Shown piece after piece: positions 2,837 to 47,817 of a DNA stretch of 64,000 nt. The DNA is taken from NCBI GenBank assembly GCA_938028665.1, contig CALIMB010000020.1:1-64000 (forward strand), read 5' to 3'. The notes below the pieces were generated by a model. It was given only the letters and a program-made list of their open reading frames with translations. It was not told where the DNA came from and ran no database searches. The stretch is from an uncultured Thermomicrobium sp. (GTDB lineage Bacteria > Chloroflexota > Chloroflexia > Thermomicrobiales > Thermomicrobiaceae). Both the position numbers and the translations under genes were made by a program. Numbering within the stretch: the stretch's first letter is position 1; every line of letters starts with the position of its first letter.

Positions 2837-3966
2837 TGTACTCCTCCACGATGCTGCGGAAGACCAAGCGTTTGTTCGACATTGCCGTGAGTGCTGTCGT
2901 TCAACAGAAACCAGTTTATCCATAAAGAATACCTTACTGGCCGAGTGATCGGCGAGGTTTTCGGTGCCTCCAACGGGGTTGTCGAGGATACAATCGCATT
3001 CCTCGAGGTGCTCCAAGCGGTCCGATACACTGGGCTGACCGGCGAATTCTGCTTCCCTGCAGAGTGACAAAGAGATGTGATCACGGTCGTCATCCGAGGC
3101 GTCGAGCGCTCGCCACGTGGTGAATAGTGTTCTTCTCGAGCTTCTTCGTGACATCGCTGATGTCTTCTTTTGGGCCAAGATGGTACGCTCCAGCCATTCC
3201 TGTTTTGGCTGCCGCTCCTCCACAGAGGGCGTGCCTTGAATGTCCCTCATCAAGCACAACGCCAAAGCTCTACCCTTCTTCCTTCAGGATGGGTGTTCGG
3301 TGGTGCTTAGCTCTGTAAGCCTCCTGGCCACAAGGATCAGTATCCTCCTGCCAATTGCTCTCCACGGGGAGGCGATGATGGCTCAGGGTTGTATTCTGGA
3401 TGGATCAGGGAGAATGCTGCGGCAGGGCACTTGCTATCTTCCGATAGGAGGGATTCGTCAGTGTGGGCGAGCCAGAGAGCGAACTCCATGGCGAGAGAAG
3501 GGCGACAGCCCCTCTGGGAACTCAGGCGCAGTGCAAAGGATGCTGGTGTGTACGCCAAGTTTGGGCGCGTCCTAGAACGAAGAACTCGGGCGTACTACAC
3601 AAGGTGCGGGGGCACGAGAGGACGGCAGATGATGCGCTGTCTGGACTAAGATGCCCGGTGCCCAGACTTTGGGGGTATCGCAACCTTCTTGAGGGATCCG
3701 CAAATAGTCCATCGTGCTGATGAGCGGTTGAGTCAGAACATGGCGGGCAGGCGATGCCTTTGCGTTGCAGGGTAGAGAGTGCGTCAGGCTGCAGTGTAAG
3801 GGTCGTCTCCGCTCTTCACGGTACTTGGAGAGCTGTGCCTTCCTTGAGTGCTGACGCTCCGCAGAGTTGATTTGGCTGCCGCGGTCATTCTTGCTGCAGA
3901 GATGTGCCGGAAGCATATTGGACGCGTGGTATGATCGGCTCGGTTGTTGAGTCGAAGGGTGGGGCG

Positions 3967-5103
3967 ATGGATCTTCACGAATACCAAGCTGCGGAGCTGC
4001 TTGCACGATACGGGATACCGATTAACCGGGGCATTCTGGCGCGGACTCCGGAAGAGGCGCGTGCAGCGGCGGAGCAACTAGGTAGCCGGGTCGTCGTGAA
4101 AGCGCAGGTTCATGCCGGCGGTCGTGGGAAGGCGGGCGGGATCCGGCTAGCAGATGATCCTATCCAGGCGGAAGCAGTTGCTCAGCAGATCCTCGGCATA
4201 AATATTCGAGGGAGGACCGTTCGCAAGGTTCTGGTCGCGCCGGCAGTTGCCTTTGAGCGCGAATACTACCTTGGTGTGGTGCTGGATCGGGATGCTCGTC
4301 GTATCGCAGTGATGGGGAGCAGTGCTGGTGGCGTCGACATCGAGGAAGTGGCGCGGGAGCATCCCGAAGCCATTGTGCGGGAATACGCTGATCCCTGCCT
4401 CGGTTTGCAGGACTTTCAGGCACGGCGGCTCGCTTTCCGACTGGGGATAGAGCCAGAGTTGGTGCGGGGATTTGCTACTCTTGCCCGCCAGCTCTATCAA
4501 GCCTATGTTGACTGTGATGCCTCCCTGGCGGAGATCAATCCACTCGTTCTAACGCGTGATCGTACGTGGCTCGCTCTCGATACGAAGGTCGTGCTAGACG
4601 ATAACGGTCTGTTCCGTCATCCCGATCTGGCTGAGCTTCGTGATCCGGAAGAAGAGGATCCGCTCGAGCGCGAAGCGCGACTAGCCGGTATAAGCTTTGT
4701 GCGCCTTAACGGTACAGTCGGCTGCATTGTGAACGGCGCTGGCCTCTCGATGGCGACAATGGATGCGATTCAGTTGTACGGTGGTGAGCCGGCAAACTTC
4801 CTCGACATCGGTGGTGGAGCCTCGGCGCAACGGGTCGCGGCGGCGCTGCGTCTGGTGGTGGCCGATCCGAATGTCCGTGCCATCCTGGTGAATATCTTCG
4901 GAGGGATCACGCGTGGTGACGTGGTCGCGCAGGGACTGCTTGAGGCTCTGCGTCAGGTCGAGGTACGGGTGCCGATGGTGATCCGCCTGGTCGGCACAAG
5001 ACAGGAAGAAGGGCGACAACTCCTTGAAGAGGCGGGTCTGACCGTGGTGGACACGATGGAAGAGGCGGCGCAGCGTGCTGTTTTGGCGGCGCAGAACCAG
5101 TGA
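3967..5103 (+). CDS. sucC: succinate-CoA ligase, ADP-forming, beta subunit
   Basis: [23 protein letters not shown]-terminus, [32 protein letters not shown]; upstream of sucD. Confidence 0.95.
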
Positions 5104-39636: not shown

Positions 39637-40250
39637 GGTTTGCAGAGTTGAGATGGGCTGGCTTGGTAGGGCTAGACGACTTGCGTCAGGTCCGGCTTCC
39701 GTCAGCGGATTGAACATCATACCTGCTGTTGTGGCAGGAGATCACCCTACGAATCGGCCACGCTCCTCCGTCGAGTGTCAGGGAACTTCCGACTAAGCCG
39801 TGCTCTTCTATCGGGGTGGAGTGAGAGAGACAAGATTGGGTATTCCCGGATCCTGCTGTCCTCTCTCACACGGCACAAGCCAGAGTATGTGGCGGCGCTG
39901 CAGCTGGCTGCGACAGAGAGGCATAGCGGGGTTAGCTGTGTCGGACTGGTGAACAGGGGGTATCCCTAAGACGGTAGCTTCAAACAGCTGCGTTACGGCT
40001 CTACCTCCATGACCTGCCTTATGGGATGAGAGGAGCTGTCAGTTGCGTTGGTGCCTCTCCGTTCGCAGAACCAAGATCGTCAAGAGTCAAGCCCGTAAGG
40101 CAGTCAGTCGATGGCCGGATGAGATCGCGCCTTAATCGATGGTCCCCCGTGCTGCGGTTAGCATGCCCTGGTAGTTCAGCAGGCTCGCTAAGATTGACAG
40201 GAGCGCACAGGGGGCGCTGCGAGTGTTCATACGAGGTAACAGGAGGTCGC

Positions 40251-41078
40251 ATGAGCCGGTTCACCTGGATACCAATCAAGCAGTACACGGACATTCTCTA
40301 CGAGCGGTTAGAGGGAGAGGGGATCGCGAAGATCACTATCAATCGTCCTGAAGTGCGCAACGCGTTTCGACCGCTCACCGTGATGGAGATGATGGACGCG
40401 TTCGCGCACGCGCGGGACGATGCATCGATCGGTGTGGTCCTCTTGACCGGGGCTGGTGACAAAGCTTTCTGTTCGGGTGGGGATCAACGGGTACGCGGCG
40501 AGGGTGGTTACGTTGACGATCAAGGTATTCCTCGTCTCAATGTCCTTGACCTGCAAAAGCAGATCCGCTATCTCCCCAAGCCAGTTATTGCGGTTGTCAA
40601 CGGGTATGCAATTGGTGGTGGCCACGTATTGCATGTGGTGTGCGATCTCACGATTGCAGCCGAGCACGCCAAGTTTGGGCAAGTCGGCCCCCGTGTTGGG
40701 AGCTTCGACGCTGGATACGGCGCAACGTTGCTTGGTCGGATCGTTGGGCACAAGAAGGCGAAGGAGATTTGGTTCCTGTGTCGTCAGTACACCGCGCAAG
40801 AGGCACTGGAGATGGGACTGGTGAACGCAGTTGTGCCCTACGAGCAGCTTGAGGAAACGGCTGTGCAATGGGCGCGTGAGATCTTGGAGAAGAGTCCAAT
40901 GGCGATCCGTTTCCTCAAAGCGGCTTTTAATGCAGATACCGACGGGCTAGCCGGACTGCAGCAATTGGCGGGGGATGCGACCCTGCTCTACTACTTGACT
41001 GACGAAGCGAAAGAAGGGCACCGTGCCTTCCTGGAAAAGCGGAAGCCCGACTTCTCGAAATTCCCACGCTTTCCGTGA
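40251..41078 (+). CDS. menB: 1,4-dihydroxy-2-naphthoyl-CoA synthase
   Basis: Start [115 protein letters not shown]. Confidence 0.95.
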
Positions 41079-41095
41079 TGCAGTGAGGTGCCGTA

Positions 41096-42019
41096 ATGCT
41101 GATGCCGGCGAGCGATTCGGCCAGGCGAGAGACCGAAGGACCAAGATGGCGGGTGTGGTGGCTGGGAGCTCGTCCAGCGACGCTGGTGGCTGCCGTGGGT
41201 CCCGTTCTGGTCGGTACGGCCGTTGGGGTACGCGAGGCGGGAACAGTGCAGTGGTTCCCGTTCCTCGCAGCACTCGCGGCAGCACTCTTGATCCAAGTGG
41301 GGACGAATTACGCAAACGACCTCTTTGATTACCTCAAGGGAGCTGACCGACCGGAGCGGGTCGGGCCAACTCGGATCACCGCGCGCGGACTGGTCACGGT
41401 TTCTGAGATGCGTAGTGCGGTCATCCTGACGTTCGGTGCAGCAATGGTGCTTGGGTTGTACCTCGTTTGGGTCGGTGGCTGGCCAATCTTGGCGATCGGC
41501 CTTGCCTCAATTGCAGCGGGGATCCTCTATACGGCTGGTCCTTGGCCGCTTGGGTACATTGGACTTGGTGACCTTTTCGTTTTCCTCTTTTTCGGGCTCG
41601 CGGCAGTCAGTGGGAGTGCCTATCTTCAGACTGGCGACTTCTCCTGGCTTGCGGTGATCGCAGCTGTGCCGATTGGGGCGTTGATTACCGCGATCCTTGT
41701 CGTCAACAACTTGCGTGACATCCCGACCGATCGTGCGGCAGGTAAGCGAACGCTTGCGGTCCGCATTGGGGAACGTGCGACCCGTTGGCAGTACGCGGTG
41801 CTCGTCAGTGTTGCCTATCTCACCCCTCTGTTCCTTGTCCTCGGAGGGCGAGGAGGGCTTGCGTTGCTGCTCCCGTGGCTCACCTTGCCCTTAGCCGTCA
41901 AGCTCGTGCGCAGTGTGCTCAACGGGACCTCTGGAGCAGCGCTGAACAGTGTATTGCGGCGTACGGGGCAGCTCCAACTCATGTTTGCTGTGCTCTTCGG
42001 GATAGGGCTGCTGTGGTGA
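41096..42019 (+). CDS. menA: 1,4-dihydroxy-2-naphthoate octaprenyltransferase
   Basis: WWLGARPATLVAAVGPVLVGTAV, NYANDLFDYLKGADRPERVGPTRITARGLV, VNNLRDIPTDRAAGKRTLAVRIG. Confidence 0.94.
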   Translation: MLMPASDSARRETEGPRWRVWWLGARPATLVAAVGPVLVGTAVGVREAGTVQWFPFLAALAAALLIQVGTNYANDLFDYLKGADRPERVGPTRITARGLVTVSEMRSAVILTFGAAMVLGLYLVWVGGWPILAIGLASIAAGILYTAGPWPLGYIGLGDLFVFLFFGLAAVSGSAYLQTGDFSWLAVIAAVPIGALITAILVVNNLRDIPTDRAAGKRTLAVRIGERATRWQYAVLVSVAYLTPLFLVLGGRGGLALLLPWLTLPLAVKLVRSVLNGTSGAALNSVLRRTGQLQLMFAVLFGIGLLW

Positions 42020-43092
42020 GATCGCTGCAGTGCCGTTGGTGGCCCTACCGACTGGAGTTCCGAACACCGTTCCGAACGGCGCGCGGCATGCTCTACGAAC
42101 GGTACGGCCTGATCGTCGAGCTCCGCACGCCGGACGGCGTCATCGGACTTGGTGACGTAGCACCGTGGCCAGGGAGCGAGGCCCGGGCACTCCTTGAGGC
42201 GAAGGCCTGGTTGACGGAACTTCGTCAGGCCGACGCGTTCCGCGATGAGCGGTCGCTCCGTCAGGCGCTCCACCGTGTTCCTGCGTCGGCGAGTGGGGCT
42301 CGGGCGGCTCGTGCAGCAATTGAGACGGCACTCGTCGATCTGCTGGCGCAGCGGGAAGGCGTGATGCTGGCACGCTGGCTGCACCCGGCCGCGCGGCCTG
42401 CAGTAGCCGTGAATGCACTCATCGGGCTGTTTGATGTGGAGAGGACGGTCGCAGCAGCATGCCAAGCAGTGGCGGCGGGATATAGCGCACTCAAGCTGAA
42501 GGTGCGTCTGGAGCCGAGCGAGACGGAGCGGGTCGCTGCGGTGCGCGCGGCAGTTGGGTCGGCAGTGCGCTTGCGGTTGGACGCGAATGGTGCTGCGACG
42601 ATCGAGCAGGCGCTCGCCTTCGCCCGTGCGATCGCTCCGCTTGATGTTGAGTACCTGGAGCAGCCGGTGGAGACGCTCGAGGACCTGGCTGAGCTCCGAC
42701 GGCGTTCTCCGGTACCCGTGGCTGCTGACGAGGTGCTTATTGGCTTGGGGGAGGTTGAGCGAGCGCTCATGCTGGCAGCGGCTGACATTCTCATCTTGAA
42801 GTTGCCGCTACTCGGTGGGCCACACTGCTTGCTTGCTGCAGTGGAGCAGGCGGCTCGGTGTGGGATTGGGGCAGTGATCACGAGCATTTTCGAGTCGGGC
42901 ATAGGGCTCGCAGCGGCACTGCACACGGCAGCAGCTCTGGCGGATCACGAGCAAGTACATGGATTGGCGACTGCGGTGATGCTCCGCTCGCTGGGAACAG
43001 CCGAACGGTTCGAACCGGTGGAAGGGCGACTTAGCCTACCGTCTGGGAGTGGACTTGGAGTGCGGTGGGACGAAGGGCAAGCAGGGACATGA
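42016..43092 (+). CDS. menC: o-succinylbenzoate synthase
   Basis: LKLKVRLEPSETERVAAVR, RLDANGAATIEQAL, EYLEQPVE, AADEVLIG, LKLPLLGG, TSIFESGIGLAAALH; GTG start overlapping the menA stop. Confidence 0.9.
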   Translation: MRSLQCRWWPYRLEFRTPFRTARGMLYERYGLIVELRTPDGVIGLGDVAPWPGSEARALLEAKAWLTELRQADAFRDERSLRQALHRVPASASGARAARAAIETALVDLLAQREGVMLARWLHPAARPAVAVNALIGLFDVERTVAAACQAVAAGYSALKLKVRLEPSETERVAAVRAAVGSAVRLRLDANGAATIEQALAFARAIAPLDVEYLEQPVETLEDLAELRRRSPVPVAADEVLIGLGEVERALMLAAADILILKLPLLGGPHCLLAAVEQAARCGIGAVITSIFESGIGLAAALHTAAALADHEQVHGLATAVMLRSLGTAERFEPVEGRLSLPSGSGLGVRWDEGQAGT

Positions 43093-43496
43093 GGGAAGAG
43101 CGATTTGCTCGCCGGCGTGTTGCTGCAGTAATGACTGGTGGGCTGGTGACAGTACTTGGTTTTGCGCTGTGCGCGGTTATCGTGCCACGGGTGCTGGTCA
43201 GTTCGACCGGGCTCGCGAACGTTCTGGTAATACTGGCGGCATCACTCATTGCAGGCAGTTGGATGCTGGTTGGGGCGGGAACGCGCCGCTTCGGTGGCCG
43301 GATATGGGGTGCGCTCTTTGGTCTCTTGGCCTATCTGTTTGTAGGAGCTCTCTGGACCGCTGGCTTCGTGCTGATCGATCCATGGGAAGTCGACTTCCGG
43401 CAGATTGATCTCATCCGGTTCATCCTTTACTCGGTGTTCTTGTGGCCGTATGCGCTCGTCTACACGTTTGATTGGTTTGGGCTCGGAGGGATCTGA
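43089..43496 (+). CDS. hypothetical 4-TM protein embedded in the men cluster
   Basis: MREERFARRRVAAVMTGGLVTVLGFALCAVIVPRV...; start overlaps the menC stop (ATGA-type). Confidence 0.7.
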   Translation: MREERFARRRVAAVMTGGLVTVLGFALCAVIVPRVLVSSTGLANVLVILAASLIAGSWMLVGAGTRRFGGRIWGALFGLLAYLFVGALWTAGFVLIDPWEVDFRQIDLIRFILYSVFLWPYALVYTFDWFGLGGI

Positions 43497-43506
43497 GAGG
43501 GCGACG

Positions 43507-45012
43507 ATGCGTCTTCCGGAGTGGCTGGCCTGGCGTGCGGTCGCGACACCGGAGCGGACGGCACTCATCTGGCGCCAGCGCGCCTGGACGTTTGCGGAAC
43601 TGGCGCAGGATGCGGACCGCATGGCGCGTCAGCTCGCTGGACTTGGTGTTGGGCCTGGCGACCGGATTGCCGCGTGCCTGTCGAATCGGCCGGAGCTCGT
43701 GGTGTTGGCCCATGCTGTGAGCCGGCTTGGTGCGGTGCTGGTACCGCTCAACATACGTCTCACTCCTCAGGAGCTCTTCATCGTGCTCTCTGATGCTGAT
43801 CCACGGGTTGTGCTAGTCGAAGCAGCGACGCGACAGGCAGTGGGGTTGTGGGCCGGGACGGTGGTTGAGGTTGAGAGTGAACTTGTTCAGCTGCCGGAGG
43901 CAATGGTGGACCTCCGGCGAGACGTTGAGGTTGAGGCGGTACACACACTGATCTATACATCGGGAACAACCGACCGTCCGAAGGGTGTTTTGCTCACGTA
44001 CGGCAATCACTGGTGGAGCGCTGTGGGTTCTCACCTGAACCTTGGAGTCCTGCCAGACGATCGCTGGCTGCTCTGCTTGCCGCTCTTTCACGTGGGAGGG
44101 CTCTCGATCCTCTTCCGCAGTGTTATTGGCGGATTCGCGGTGGAGTTGCACGAGCGGTTCGACGCAGCACTGGCGAACGCCGCGATTGAGCGCGGGGTGA
44201 CGCTCGTCTCGCTGGTAGGGACGATGCTCTGGCGAATGCTCGAGGAACGCGGTGAGCGATGCTATCCGGCGCATCTTCGTGCTGTGCTCCTTGGCGGAGG
44301 ACCTGCACCGCGTCCGTTGCTTGAGCGCTGTGTTGCAGTCGGGCTGCCGGTGCTACAGACGTATGGATTAACAGAGACCGCATCACAGTTAGCAACCCTC
44401 GCACCTGAAGATGCACTGCGCAAGCTGGGTTCGGCTGGAAAACCGCTCTATCCGAACGCGCTGCGCATCGTCCTGCCGGACGGAAAGATAGCTGGACCAG
44501 GTGAGCCGGGAGAAATCGAAATACAGGGGCCAGTGGTCACACCAGGCTACTGGCGACGGCCGGATCTTACTGCGCGTGCCTTCTCTGACGGGTGGCTACG
44601 CACCGGTGATATCGGGTATCTCGACGAGGAAGGGTACCTCTACGTACTCGACCGGCGTGATGATCTGATCGTGACCGGTGGGGAGAATGTCTTTCCAGCT
44701 GAGGTTGAGGCGGTGCTGCTTGGTCATCCGGCTGTCGCTGAGGTAGCCGTGATAGGGATACCGGACGTCGAGTGGGGGCAGCGAGTAGCGGCTTTCGTCG
44801 TGCTCCGAGGGGGAATGCGTGCCACAGAGAAAGAGCTCGTTGCCTGGTGCCGTACACGACTGGCAGGGTACAAGGTGCCGCGTGTGATTCAGTTCGTCGA
44901 GCAGCTTCCGCGCACGGCCAGCGGCAAACTACAGCGTTGGCTTCTTCGCCAAGCGTGGGAATGCACTGTGCACGGTCGGACGAGCGGTACCGGGGAGCTG
45001 CACCAGGTCTGA
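43507..45012 (+). CDS. menE: o-succinylbenzoate-CoA ligase
   Basis: LIYTSGTTDRPKGVLLTYGNH, LLCLPLFHVGGLSILFRSVI, QTYGLTETASQLATL, GWLRTGDIGYLDEEGYLYVLDRRDDLIVTGGENVFPAEVE, PRTASGKLQR. Confidence 0.93.
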   Translation: MRLPEWLAWRAVATPERTALIWRQRAWTFAELAQDADRMARQLAGLGVGPGDRIAACLSNRPELVVLAHAVSRLGAVLVPLNIRLTPQELFIVLSDADPRVVLVEAATRQAVGLWAGTVVEVESELVQLPEAMVDLRRDVEVEAVHTLIYTSGTTDRPKGVLLTYGNHWWSAVGSHLNLGVLPDDRWLLCLPLFHVGGLSILFRSVIGGFAVELHERFDAALANAAIERGVTLVSLVGTMLWRMLEERGERCYPAHLRAVLLGGGPAPRPLLERCVAVGLPVLQTYGLTETASQLATLAPEDALRKLGSAGKPLYPNALRIVLPDGKIAGPGEPGEIEIQGPVVTPGYWRRPDLTARAFSDGWLRTGDIGYLDEEGYLYVLDRRDDLIVTGGENVFPAEVEAVLLGHPAVAEVAVIGIPDVEWGQRVAAFVVLRGGMRATEKELVAWCRTRLAGYKVPRVIQFVEQLPRTASGKLQRWLLRQAWECTVHGRTSGTGELHQV

Positions 45013-45303: not shown

Positions 45304-47817
45304 ATGTATCTGCTTGATCAGCCAGATGCAGCGTTAGAGTACCGACGGCAATATCGAGGGCTGATCGGTATTGCGAGCAAAGTGCCGCTGCGTGATCGGG
45401 CAATGCTTAGCCTGGTTTATACGCCGGGAGTCGCCGAGGCCTGTCGCGTCATCAATCAGGACGAAGTCGCCTCCTTCGATCTTACTGGGCGCGGCAACAC
45501 CGTGGCGATTCTCACCGATGCCTCGGATCTGTTCGGGCCAACCCGGGCTCCGGTTGAGGCAGCTTTGCCACTGCTCGAAGCCAAGGCTGTGCTTTTTAAG
45601 ACATTCGCTGGCGTAGACGCTGTCCCGATTGGTGTCGATTTGGCGAATCCCTTGGAGATTGTTGAGGTTGCTCGTTCTCTGATTCCAACCTTTGGCGCGA
45701 TCTGCCTTGACCACATTCGGGCCCCTCACAGCTTCACAATTCAGGATCACCTGGAAAAGGCTGCACCAATTCCCGTCTTCTCCAATCAGCATCACGGGAC
45801 AGCGATCCTGGTACTTGGGGCGCTCAAGAATGCGCTGGAGGTTGTCGGCAAGCGGCTGGAACAGGTGCGAGTAGTGATCGCTGGCGCTGGTTTGGCCGGG
45901 ATCGGGGTCGCGCGGTTGCTGACCCGCGTCGGGGTGAAGGATCTTATTGTCTGCGACCGTGCGGGTGCGATCTACCTGGGGCGGCCATACCGGATGAACT
46001 GGGCCAAGGCGTACTTGGCCAAGGAGACCAATCCGGAGCGGCGGCGTGGCTCACTCGCTGAGGTGTTGAAGGGGGCGGACGTCTTCATCGGGTTGGCTCG
46101 GGGAAACATTGTAACCCCGGAGATGATCGCCGCAATGGCTCCCGACCCGATTGTCTTCGCCCTTGCTCTGCCGTTTCCAGAGATTGACCCAAATCTCGCG
46201 CGTCAGGCTGGTGCCGCGGTCGTAGCGACCGGCCGCTCGGACTATCCGAATATGATGGATGTGTCGCTCGTCTTTCCGGGAGTCTTCCGTGGACTGCTGG
46301 ACTCGGGAGCACGGAATATTCGTTTGCGCACCTTGGTCTACGCTGCCGAGGCGCTGGCGAGTCTTGTGCCGCCACAGCAACGGAGACCAGAGCATATTGT
46401 GCCGCAGATCTTCGACTTCCGAGTTGCCCCAGCCATCGCGGCTGCAGTCGTCCAGGCAGCACTTGAGACTGGCGAGGCGACGCGACAGGTCGAGCCGCAG
46501 CAGGTGGCCGAGAATACGCGGCGGTACATCTACGAGGGAGCTTTTGAACCTCCACGGGTGAGTTCGCGGCGTCCGCGTTCCCTAAACGAGCAGGCACTTG
46601 ACCTCCGGAGACGGTATCGCGGTGTGTTGGAAATCCGTAGTAAGTTACCTGTTCGTGACCATCATATTCTGAACCTACTCTATCTACCGCCAGCTGCACT
46701 TGCTCCCGTCGACGAGGTGCGCCAGCATCGTGAGGCGGTCTACGATCTCACCGTCAAGGGGAATCTTGTGGCCATTGTGACTGACGGGAGTGCTGTGCTC
46801 GGCCTTGGTGACATCGGACCGCAGGCGGCGTTGCCGGTGATGGAGGGAAAGGCCGTTCTGTTCCAGTCACTGGGTGGTGTTGAAGCCTTCCCGATCTGTA
46901 TCGCCGAGCGTGATCCACAACAGATCGTCGACATCGTCGTAGCAATCGCGCCCTCGTTTGGTGGCATCAACCTCGAAGATATCTCGGCTCCGCGATGCTT
47001 CGAAATTGAGGCGGCCCTTAAGGAGCGCCTCGATATGCCGGTCTTCCACGATGACCAGCACGGAACGGCAATTGTGGTGCTTGCCGGGCTCATCAATGCC
47101 TGCAAGCTCCGCGGGACGCCGCTGAGTGAGGCGAGAGTGGTAATTAACGGTGCAGGTGCGGCTGGAATTGCAACCGCCAAGCTGCTCTTAACGTATGGGG
47201 TTGGTGATCTCATTCTGTGCGATCGGCATGGGACCATCTACCGCGAGCGTGAAGTGGGAATGAATCGCTACAAGATGGAGATTGCTCGCCTGACAAATAA
47301 GGCGGGTGTGCGCGGCGGGCTGGCTGACGCACTGGTTGGAGCCGATGTGTTTATCGGGCTCTCCAGCCCCAATATTCTCTCTCCTGAGATGATCCGCACC
47401 ATGGCTCCTCACCCCATTATCTTTGCCCTTGCAAATCCCGATCCCGAAATTCTGCCCGATCTCGCCCTTGAGGCCGGTGCGCTGGTGGTGGCCACCGGCC
47501 GCTCTGACTTCCCGAACCAGGTCAATAACTCCCTTGCCTTCCCCGGGGTCTTCCGAGGCGCCCTCGATGTCCGTGCCCGGGACATAAACGATGCAATGAA
47601 ACTGGCAGCCGCGCAGGCAATCGCGGAGCTCGTCACGCCACGTCAGCTCTCACCGCAGTTCATTATCCCCGATAGTCTCGACCTCAATGTTCCTCCAGCA
47701 GTCGCTGCTGCAGTCGCACGGGCTGCAATGGAAACCGGGGTGGCCCAGGTGCAGGTCGATCCGGATGAAGTAGCCGCGCGGACGCGGGAGCTGTTGTACG
47801 AAGGAGTGCGCCACTAG
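45304..47817 (+). CDS. tandem fusion of two malic-enzyme modules (837 aa)
   Basis: Residues 1-~425 and ~426-837 align with each other and with NAD(P)-malic enzymes. Module 2: GSAVLGLGDIGPQAALPVMEGKAVLF, NLEDISAPRCFEIE, PVFHDDQHGTAIV, ANPDPEI, GRSDFPNQVNN. Module 1: LVYTPGVAEAC, DASDLFGPTRAPVEAALPLLEAKAVLF, CLDHIRAPHSFTIQ, PVFSNQHHGTAI. Confidence 0.93.
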   Translation: MYLLDQPDAALEYRRQYRGLIGIASKVPLRDRAMLSLVYTPGVAEACRVINQDEVASFDLTGRGNTVAILTDASDLFGPTRAPVEAALPLLEAKAVLFKTFAGVDAVPIGVDLANPLEIVEVARSLIPTFGAICLDHIRAPHSFTIQDHLEKAAPIPVFSNQHHGTAILVLGALKNALEVVGKRLEQVRVVIAGAGLAGIGVARLLTRVGVKDLIVCDRAGAIYLGRPYRMNWAKAYLAKETNPERRRGSLAEVLKGADVFIGLARGNIVTPEMIAAMAPDPIVFALALPFPEIDPNLARQAGAAVVATGRSDYPNMMDVSLVFPGVFRGLLDSGARNIRLRTLVYAAEALASLVPPQQRRPEHIVPQIFDFRVAPAIAAAVVQAALETGEATRQVEPQQVAENTRRYIYEGAFEPPRVSSRRPRSLNEQALDLRRRYRGVLEIRSKLPVRDHHILNLLYLPPAALAPVDEVRQHREAVYDLTVKGNLVAIVTDGSAVLGLGDIGPQAALPVMEGKAVLFQSLGGVEAFPICIAERDPQQIVDIVVAIAPSFGGINLEDISAPRCFEIEAALKERLDMPVFHDDQHGTAIVVLAGLINACKLRGTPLSEARVVINGAGAAGIATAKLLLTYGVGDLILCDRHGTIYREREVGMNRYKMEIARLTNKAGVRGGLADALVGADVFIGLSSPNILSPEMIRTMAPHPIIFALANPDPEILPDLALEAGALVVATGRSDFPNQVNNSLAFPGVFRGALDVRARDINDAMKLAAAQAIAELVTPRQLSPQFIIPDSLDLNVPPAVAAAVARAAMETGVAQVQVDPDEVAARTRELLYEGVRH

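Follow-up and report, generated by a model that had tools for sequence, protein, structure and literature searches.

A fused pair of malic enzyme modules in Thermomicrobium and its relatives, predicted to pair within one chain as a pseudo-heterodimer that has one composite active site

Results

The fusion gene and its surroundings

The window, a stretch of 64,000 nucleotides from the genome of an uncultured Thermomicrobium sp. (contig CALIMB010000020.1 of assembly GCA_938028665.1), carries an open reading frame of 837 codons with an ATG start and no internal stops (Table 1). Each half of its translation separately matched both PF00390 (malic) and PF03949 (Malic_M) above the curated cut-off in a Pfam search, which bears out an earlier note on this DNA that had described one 837-aa frame holding two malic enzyme (ME) modules. 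The modules are ~413 residues each and are separated by a linker of ~11 residues. A search of the 2.78 Mb source assembly found the ME-ME fusion to be its sole malic enzyme gene. Upstream, at 40188-45012 on the same strand, lie menB, menA, menC, a hypothetical gene and menE. These genes provided no operon clue to function, as fusion loci outside the window and T. roseum do not have them (the neighbours at L004, L006, L007 and L013 are unrelated), and a promoter and terminator scan of the fusion locus was uninformative.

In T. roseum DSM 5159, the nearest named relative, the 837-codon frame is also open (92.6% identity) in the closed record NC_011961.1, a 918 kb circular plasmid on which the menB/A/C/E order upstream of the fusion is identical. 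The fusion was found in all six other genomes of the genus (the frame is shortened in one) and throughout the order. The closed T. roseum genome and the order-wide conservation exclude a frameshift, an assembly artefact or a MAG chimera, and with these the possibility, raised earlier, that a frameshift conceals two separate genes. RefSeq lists the T. roseum gene (L173, NC_011961.1 9279-10514) as a 412-aa 'NADP-dependent malic enzyme' with an internal start that omits module 1; the fusion frame is open from 8001, ahead of that start.

Table 1. Features of the fusion gene, with positions in the window and residue numbers in the 837-aa protein; counts refer to the homologous fusions surveyed
Feature	Residues	Position	Strand	Remarks
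ME-ME fusion gene	837 aa	45304..47817	+	ORF translation, Pfam search, T. roseum orthologue
Module 1	1-413	45304..46542	+	Predicted catalytically dead; Tyr-donor loop and NADP-binding residues kept
Module 1 YTPGVA loop	39-44	45418..45435	+	Predicted trans-donated Tyr (MaeB Y52 equivalent); Tyr in 107/107
Module 1 LDHI	135-138	45706..45717	+	Degenerate LEDI metal-ligand motif
Module 1 SNQHHG	160-165	45781..45798	+	Degenerate HDDQHG; N161 is the D174-equivalent, non-Asp in 108/108
Module 1 D218, R227, K235	codons 217-235	45952..46008	+	Predicted nucleotide-binding; MaeB D233/R242/K250 equivalents, kept in 108/108
Inter-module linker	~11 aa	46543..46575	+	6-19 aa in homologues, one of 95 aa
Module 2	425-837	46576..47814	+	Predicted catalytic module with all Lys/Glu/Asp/Asn residues
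Module 2 YLPPAALAP	460-468	46681..46707	+	Degenerate Tyr loop; TPGV lost, one-residue insertion, Y460 kept
Module 2 MEGKA	513-517	46840..46854	+	Catalytic Lys K516; Lys in 108/108
Module 2 LEDI	557-560	46972..46983	+	E558, D559; 108/108
Module 2 HDDQHG	582-587	47047..47064	+	D583 positions Lys, D584 metal ligand; 108/108
Module 2 NPDPE	711-715	47434..47448	+	N711; Asn in 108/108
Module 2 NQVNN	738-742	47515..47529	+	N741/N742; 108/108

Active-site motifs and the MaeB geometry

Every motif that had been quoted for module 1 was found in the translation, LPFPEI (residues 289-294) and NMMDV (residues 316-320) among them; this module also contains LEAKA, with K94. The metal and substrate motifs said to be retained by module 2 (LEDI, HDDQHG, NPDPE, NQVNN and MEGKA) are likewise present. 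An alteration of the module 2 Tyr loop had also been reported, and the TPGVA stretch after the Tyr is indeed lost, but the catalytic Tyr itself (Y460) is retained. The proposal that the losses of the two modules are complementary is thus upheld for whole sites but not residue by residue, with module 1 keeping K94 and its NADP-binding residues and module 2 keeping Y460.

The ME part of Bdellovibrio MaeB is a domain-swapped dimer (PMC7902834). Its Y52 comes from the partner monomer, K107, E149 and D174 are provided in cis, and the NADP phosphate is read by D233, R242 and K250. According to the same paper, MaeB and small prokaryotic MEs form a tight dimer with a catalytic site built from both protomers, and in the large eukaryotic-type ME the Tyr and the metal site are on the same chain. 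The suggestion in the earlier note that small bacterial MEs can take their Tyr from the partner subunit was therefore correct. Spacing is equal in MaeB and the window protein between Tyr and Lys (Y52-K107 and Y39-K94, 55 residues), between Lys and Glu (K107-E149 and K94-136, 42 residues) and between Glu and Asp (E149-D174 and 136-161, 25 residues). The +9/+17 spacing of MaeB D233-R242-K250 is common to D218-R227-K235 of module 1 and D640-R649-K657 of module 2.

Homologues and origin

A survey of ME-ME fusions, such as had been proposed earlier, was carried out by a genome scan and whole-genome searches and gathered 109 distinct fusions from several bacterial groups. Merging the window's own copies left 108 rows; the module 1 Tyr position was scorable in 107 of them. 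The fusions span the window's order and other parts of its phylum. They also occur in five records bearing the titles Vampirovibrionales, Deltaproteobacteria, Proteobacteria, Chloroflexi and bacterium, every one of which has relatives with a fusion in its class. Linker length is 6-19 residues, with a single exception of 95.

In the phylogenetic tree, all module 1s group together (100/100), as do all module 2s (100/92), with standalone MEs outside both clades. Because of this topology, the sequences point to a single duplication-fusion as the origin of the ME-ME fusions; multiple independent fusions find no support in the tree. In a Clostridiales MAG (L008, 5998-8436), two intact and very similar standalone MEs lie head to tail in one frame with a stop between them, the kind of duplication that could precede an ME-ME fusion. 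A second, partial ME-ME fusion (L150, G089 C80, ORF 2971-4401, reverse strand) lies directly upstream of a first on the same strand, so that the copies are in tandem, and the Tyr of its module 2 loop is replaced by Phe. In a fusion from a MAG titled Nitrospirae (L026, 2-2455), the module 1 catalytic Lys is Asn and the module 2 coding sequence is broken up among several frames, probably through an assembly error.

Completeness of the possible active sites

For the 107 scorable fusions we tallied which combination of a Tyr with the Lys/Glu/Asp/Asp/Asp/Asn/Asn/Asn set is complete. The module 1 Tyr combined with the other catalytic residues of module 2 was complete in 107/107, whereas the mirror site (module 2 Tyr with the site of module 1) was complete in 0/107; one interface site is therefore complete and the other degenerate across the homologues. 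A site lying wholly within module 1 was complete in 0/107. A site wholly within module 2 was complete in 100/107, the seven exceptions arising because the module 2 Tyr became His, Cys or Phe. This Tyr is kept in 101/108 fusions and replaced by His in five, Cys in one and Phe in one, which amounts to ~5 independent changes on the tree; the module 1 Tyr is unchanged in every scorable fusion. A self-sufficient module 2, which the earlier note had regarded as fatal to its reading, is disfavoured by these repeated Tyr losses, although most module 2s still hold a complete set.

The equivalent of MaeB D174 in module 1 is not Asp in any of the 108 fusions (N in 68, H in 19, A in 8, S in 8, T in 3 and G in 2). 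Module 1 retains the E/D/D metal triad in 24/108 and the catalytic Lys in 88/107. Homologues with module 1 metal ligands, which had been expected to argue against a composite site, thus exist, but none of them keeps the D174-equivalent. Because this residue, which positions the catalytic Lys, is absent throughout, no module 1 is expected to have a working site, even where the metal ligands are kept. Its loss appears to have come first in the decay; metal and substrate residues would then have gone in some lineages. The least decayed module 1s of the set belong to the G506 class (L224-L234); in L224 and L228 the Lys, N300, every metal ligand and the leading Asn of the NN pair are intact, and the chief difference is a Ser or Ala at the D174 position.

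Conservation of and selection on module 1

Whole modules were compared at 102 columns that are near-invariant in standalone MEs. At 37 of these columns module 2 has preserved the residue and module 1 has not, and no such column falls within residues 1-62; six show the reverse (L35, G42, V43, C47, K99 and K183). Four of the six (L35, G42, V43 and C47) surround Tyr39 on the crossover segment. The pattern (Fisher exact p = 1.2e-4, indicative only, as the columns are not fully independent) is as predicted by donation of the Tyr in trans and not as predicted by a self-sufficient module 2.

Within the genus and its neighbours, dN/dS is ~0.02 (0.015-0.05) for module 1, the same as for module 2, although farther pairs are near synonymous saturation and their values rough. 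Module 1 is hence judged, from codon comparison, to be under strong purifying selection. The equivalents of D233, R242 and K250 are each present in 108/108 module 1s, compared with 106, 104 and 98 of 108 module 2s, so that the adenine-phosphate half of the module 1 nucleotide site is under no less constraint than its counterpart in the catalytic module. The nicotinamide contact N300 is mostly lost from module 1. The simplest reading of this residue conservation is that module 1 has retained an NADP(H) site with a structural or regulatory role.

Structure prediction

AlphaFold2, applied to the window protein with 49 fusions, returned a pLDDT of 93.4 and a pTM of 0.93. Two equal modules of uncertain mutual placement are expected to give a pTM of ~0.5-0.6 by our own estimate, and the predicted placement of the modules relative to each other is confident by that comparison. 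The homologue with the 95-residue linker (L151, G090 C84) gave a pTM of 0.87, which suggests that docking is independent of a short tether; its linker is of low complexity and mostly predicted to be disordered (429-513). Homology and the pTM together would place Y39 close to the module 2 site. A fold search of the PDB matched single MEs only, with TM-scores to the target of 0.84-0.96 (5CEE, 0.96), because library chains hold one ME module; both modules matched minimal MEs. Module 2 is ~50% identical to solved MEs.

Discussion

We consider it highly probable, from residue conservation and the predicted structure, that the fusion encodes a single-chain pseudo-heterodimeric ME with one composite site, a dead former site in module 1, a probable preference for NADP and one ancient origin by duplication and fusion. 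The pseudo-heterodimer with a composite site put forward in the earlier note is thereby supported, both by the residue tally and by the confident predicted docking. The ancestor would have been a minimal (~40 kDa) bacterial malic enzyme, and the two modules would dock within one chain as the usual domain-swapped dimer does. The N-terminal crossover helix of module 1 would insert Tyr39 into the module 2 site, to which module 2 would supply Lys516, Glu558, Asp559, Asp583, Asp584, Asn711 and Asn741/742. No other site would work, so that each chain would have a single active one. The mirror site, formed by the module 1 pocket and the module 2 Tyr loop, is predicted to have no turnover, because module 1 would have lost first the Lys-positioning Asp and then, by lineage, metal and substrate residues, while the TPGV loop of module 2 decayed. 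Module 1 would persist as the half that supports the structure, donates the Tyr and probably binds NADP(H), and an allosteric role for it is possible. Catalysis, in-chain pairing, cofactor choice and regulation by the dead site are all steps that we infer.

A more specific suggestion, which we offer tentatively and hold to be rather doubtful, is that module 1 may act as an NADP(H) sensor through its invariant GxGxxG/Asp/Arg/Lys set, switching the composite site by way of the Tyr-bearing crossover helix.

Among the alternatives, two concern how the modules pair. Module 2s of two chains could dimerize with each other and use Tyr460, reducing module 1 to an appendage that serves regulation or oligomerisation, comparable to the PTA of MaeB. 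The prevalence of Tyr at the module 2 position (101/108) and the precedent of MaeB for fusion to a regulator are in keeping with such an arrangement. We nevertheless regard it as improbable, given that module 2 has lost the Tyr ~5 times independently while keeping all its other residues, that module 2 has a decayed TPGV loop where every scorable module 1 has an intact one, and that AlphaFold docks module 1 onto module 2 with high confidence. Alternatively, module 1 of one chain could be paired with module 2 of another in a swapped dimer with two composite sites. The residue pattern is equally compatible with in-chain and between-chain pairing, but the single-chain pTM values of 0.93 and 0.87 and the linker of 6-19 residues in nearly all homologues make between-chain pairing, in our view, quite improbable.

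It is very unlikely that the protein catalyses another reaction, such as oxaloacetate decarboxylation or malolactic-type chemistry. Superfamily relatives do catalyse different reactions, and a malolactic model is among the weak matches; against this, all ME-site residues of module 2 are kept in 108/108, the module is ~50% identical to solved MEs and no other ME-like gene occurs in the genome. That module 1 is a decaying pseudogene half in which the YTPGVA loop was left by chance is scarcely credible: many of its active-site residues are lost, but its dN/dS equals that of module 2, which contradicts decay, and its Tyr (107/107) and NADP residues (108/108) are kept over several bacterial groups since one ancient origin.

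The minimal bacterial MEs of Candidatus Phytoplasma (5CEE), T. maritima (1VL6) and P. horikoshii (2DVM) have the same fold and module length, but they are homodimers with two equal sites, whereas the fusion is joined and asymmetric, with two modules per ORF and a second site that is incomplete in 107/107. MaeB resembles the fusion in joining a catalytic ME module to a module without catalysis of its own, and in the shared NADP residues. Its appendage is, however, an unrelated phosphotransacetylase (PTA) that senses acetyl-CoA, and its ME part is a symmetric dimer, whereas the partner in the fusion is another ME. The Pfam search found no PTA domain in the window protein, and the MaeB-type model NF009501 scored 645 bits, far under its 1178-bit cut-off; the distinction from the ME-PTA fusion drawn in the earlier note thus holds.

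The plan of a fused homodimer is shared with membrane adenylyl cyclases, in which one site works and the degenerate one binds forskolin; as fold and chemistry are unrelated, this is an analogy only. There, a homodimer with active centres at its interface was duplicated and fused into a pseudo-heterodimer (C1/C2) (PMC9552081). Plant mitochondrial NAD-ME is a heteromeric ME of two diverged subunits, alpha and beta (PMC3742170); these are encoded by separate genes and belong to the large eukaryotic-type ME, whereas the ME-ME fusion is a single gene. No ME-ME fusion and no tandem ME came up in a literature search, and the paper on the T. roseum genome is silent on malic enzyme. Malic enzymes, dimers with a trans-donated Tyr, ME-PTA fusions and, as a kind, duplicated and fused homodimers are already known. 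As a fused and asymmetric ME-ME enzyme with a single predicted composite site, the protein appears to represent a class of ME that has not been described, present in >100 species under single-ME names.

Conclusions

The RefSeq entry for T. roseum is an annotation fault of consequence, as cloning the 412-aa protein drops the predicted Tyr-donor half and would probably miss the active enzyme. The fusion is a natural experiment on how the residues of one active site are divided between the halves of a domain-swapped dimer. With one predicted site per chain that can be mutated without symmetry, it would allow a direct test of the trans-Tyr mechanism and of half-site regulation. If the sensor reading is true, the fusion would be an allosteric malic enzyme regulated by its own former twin subunit.
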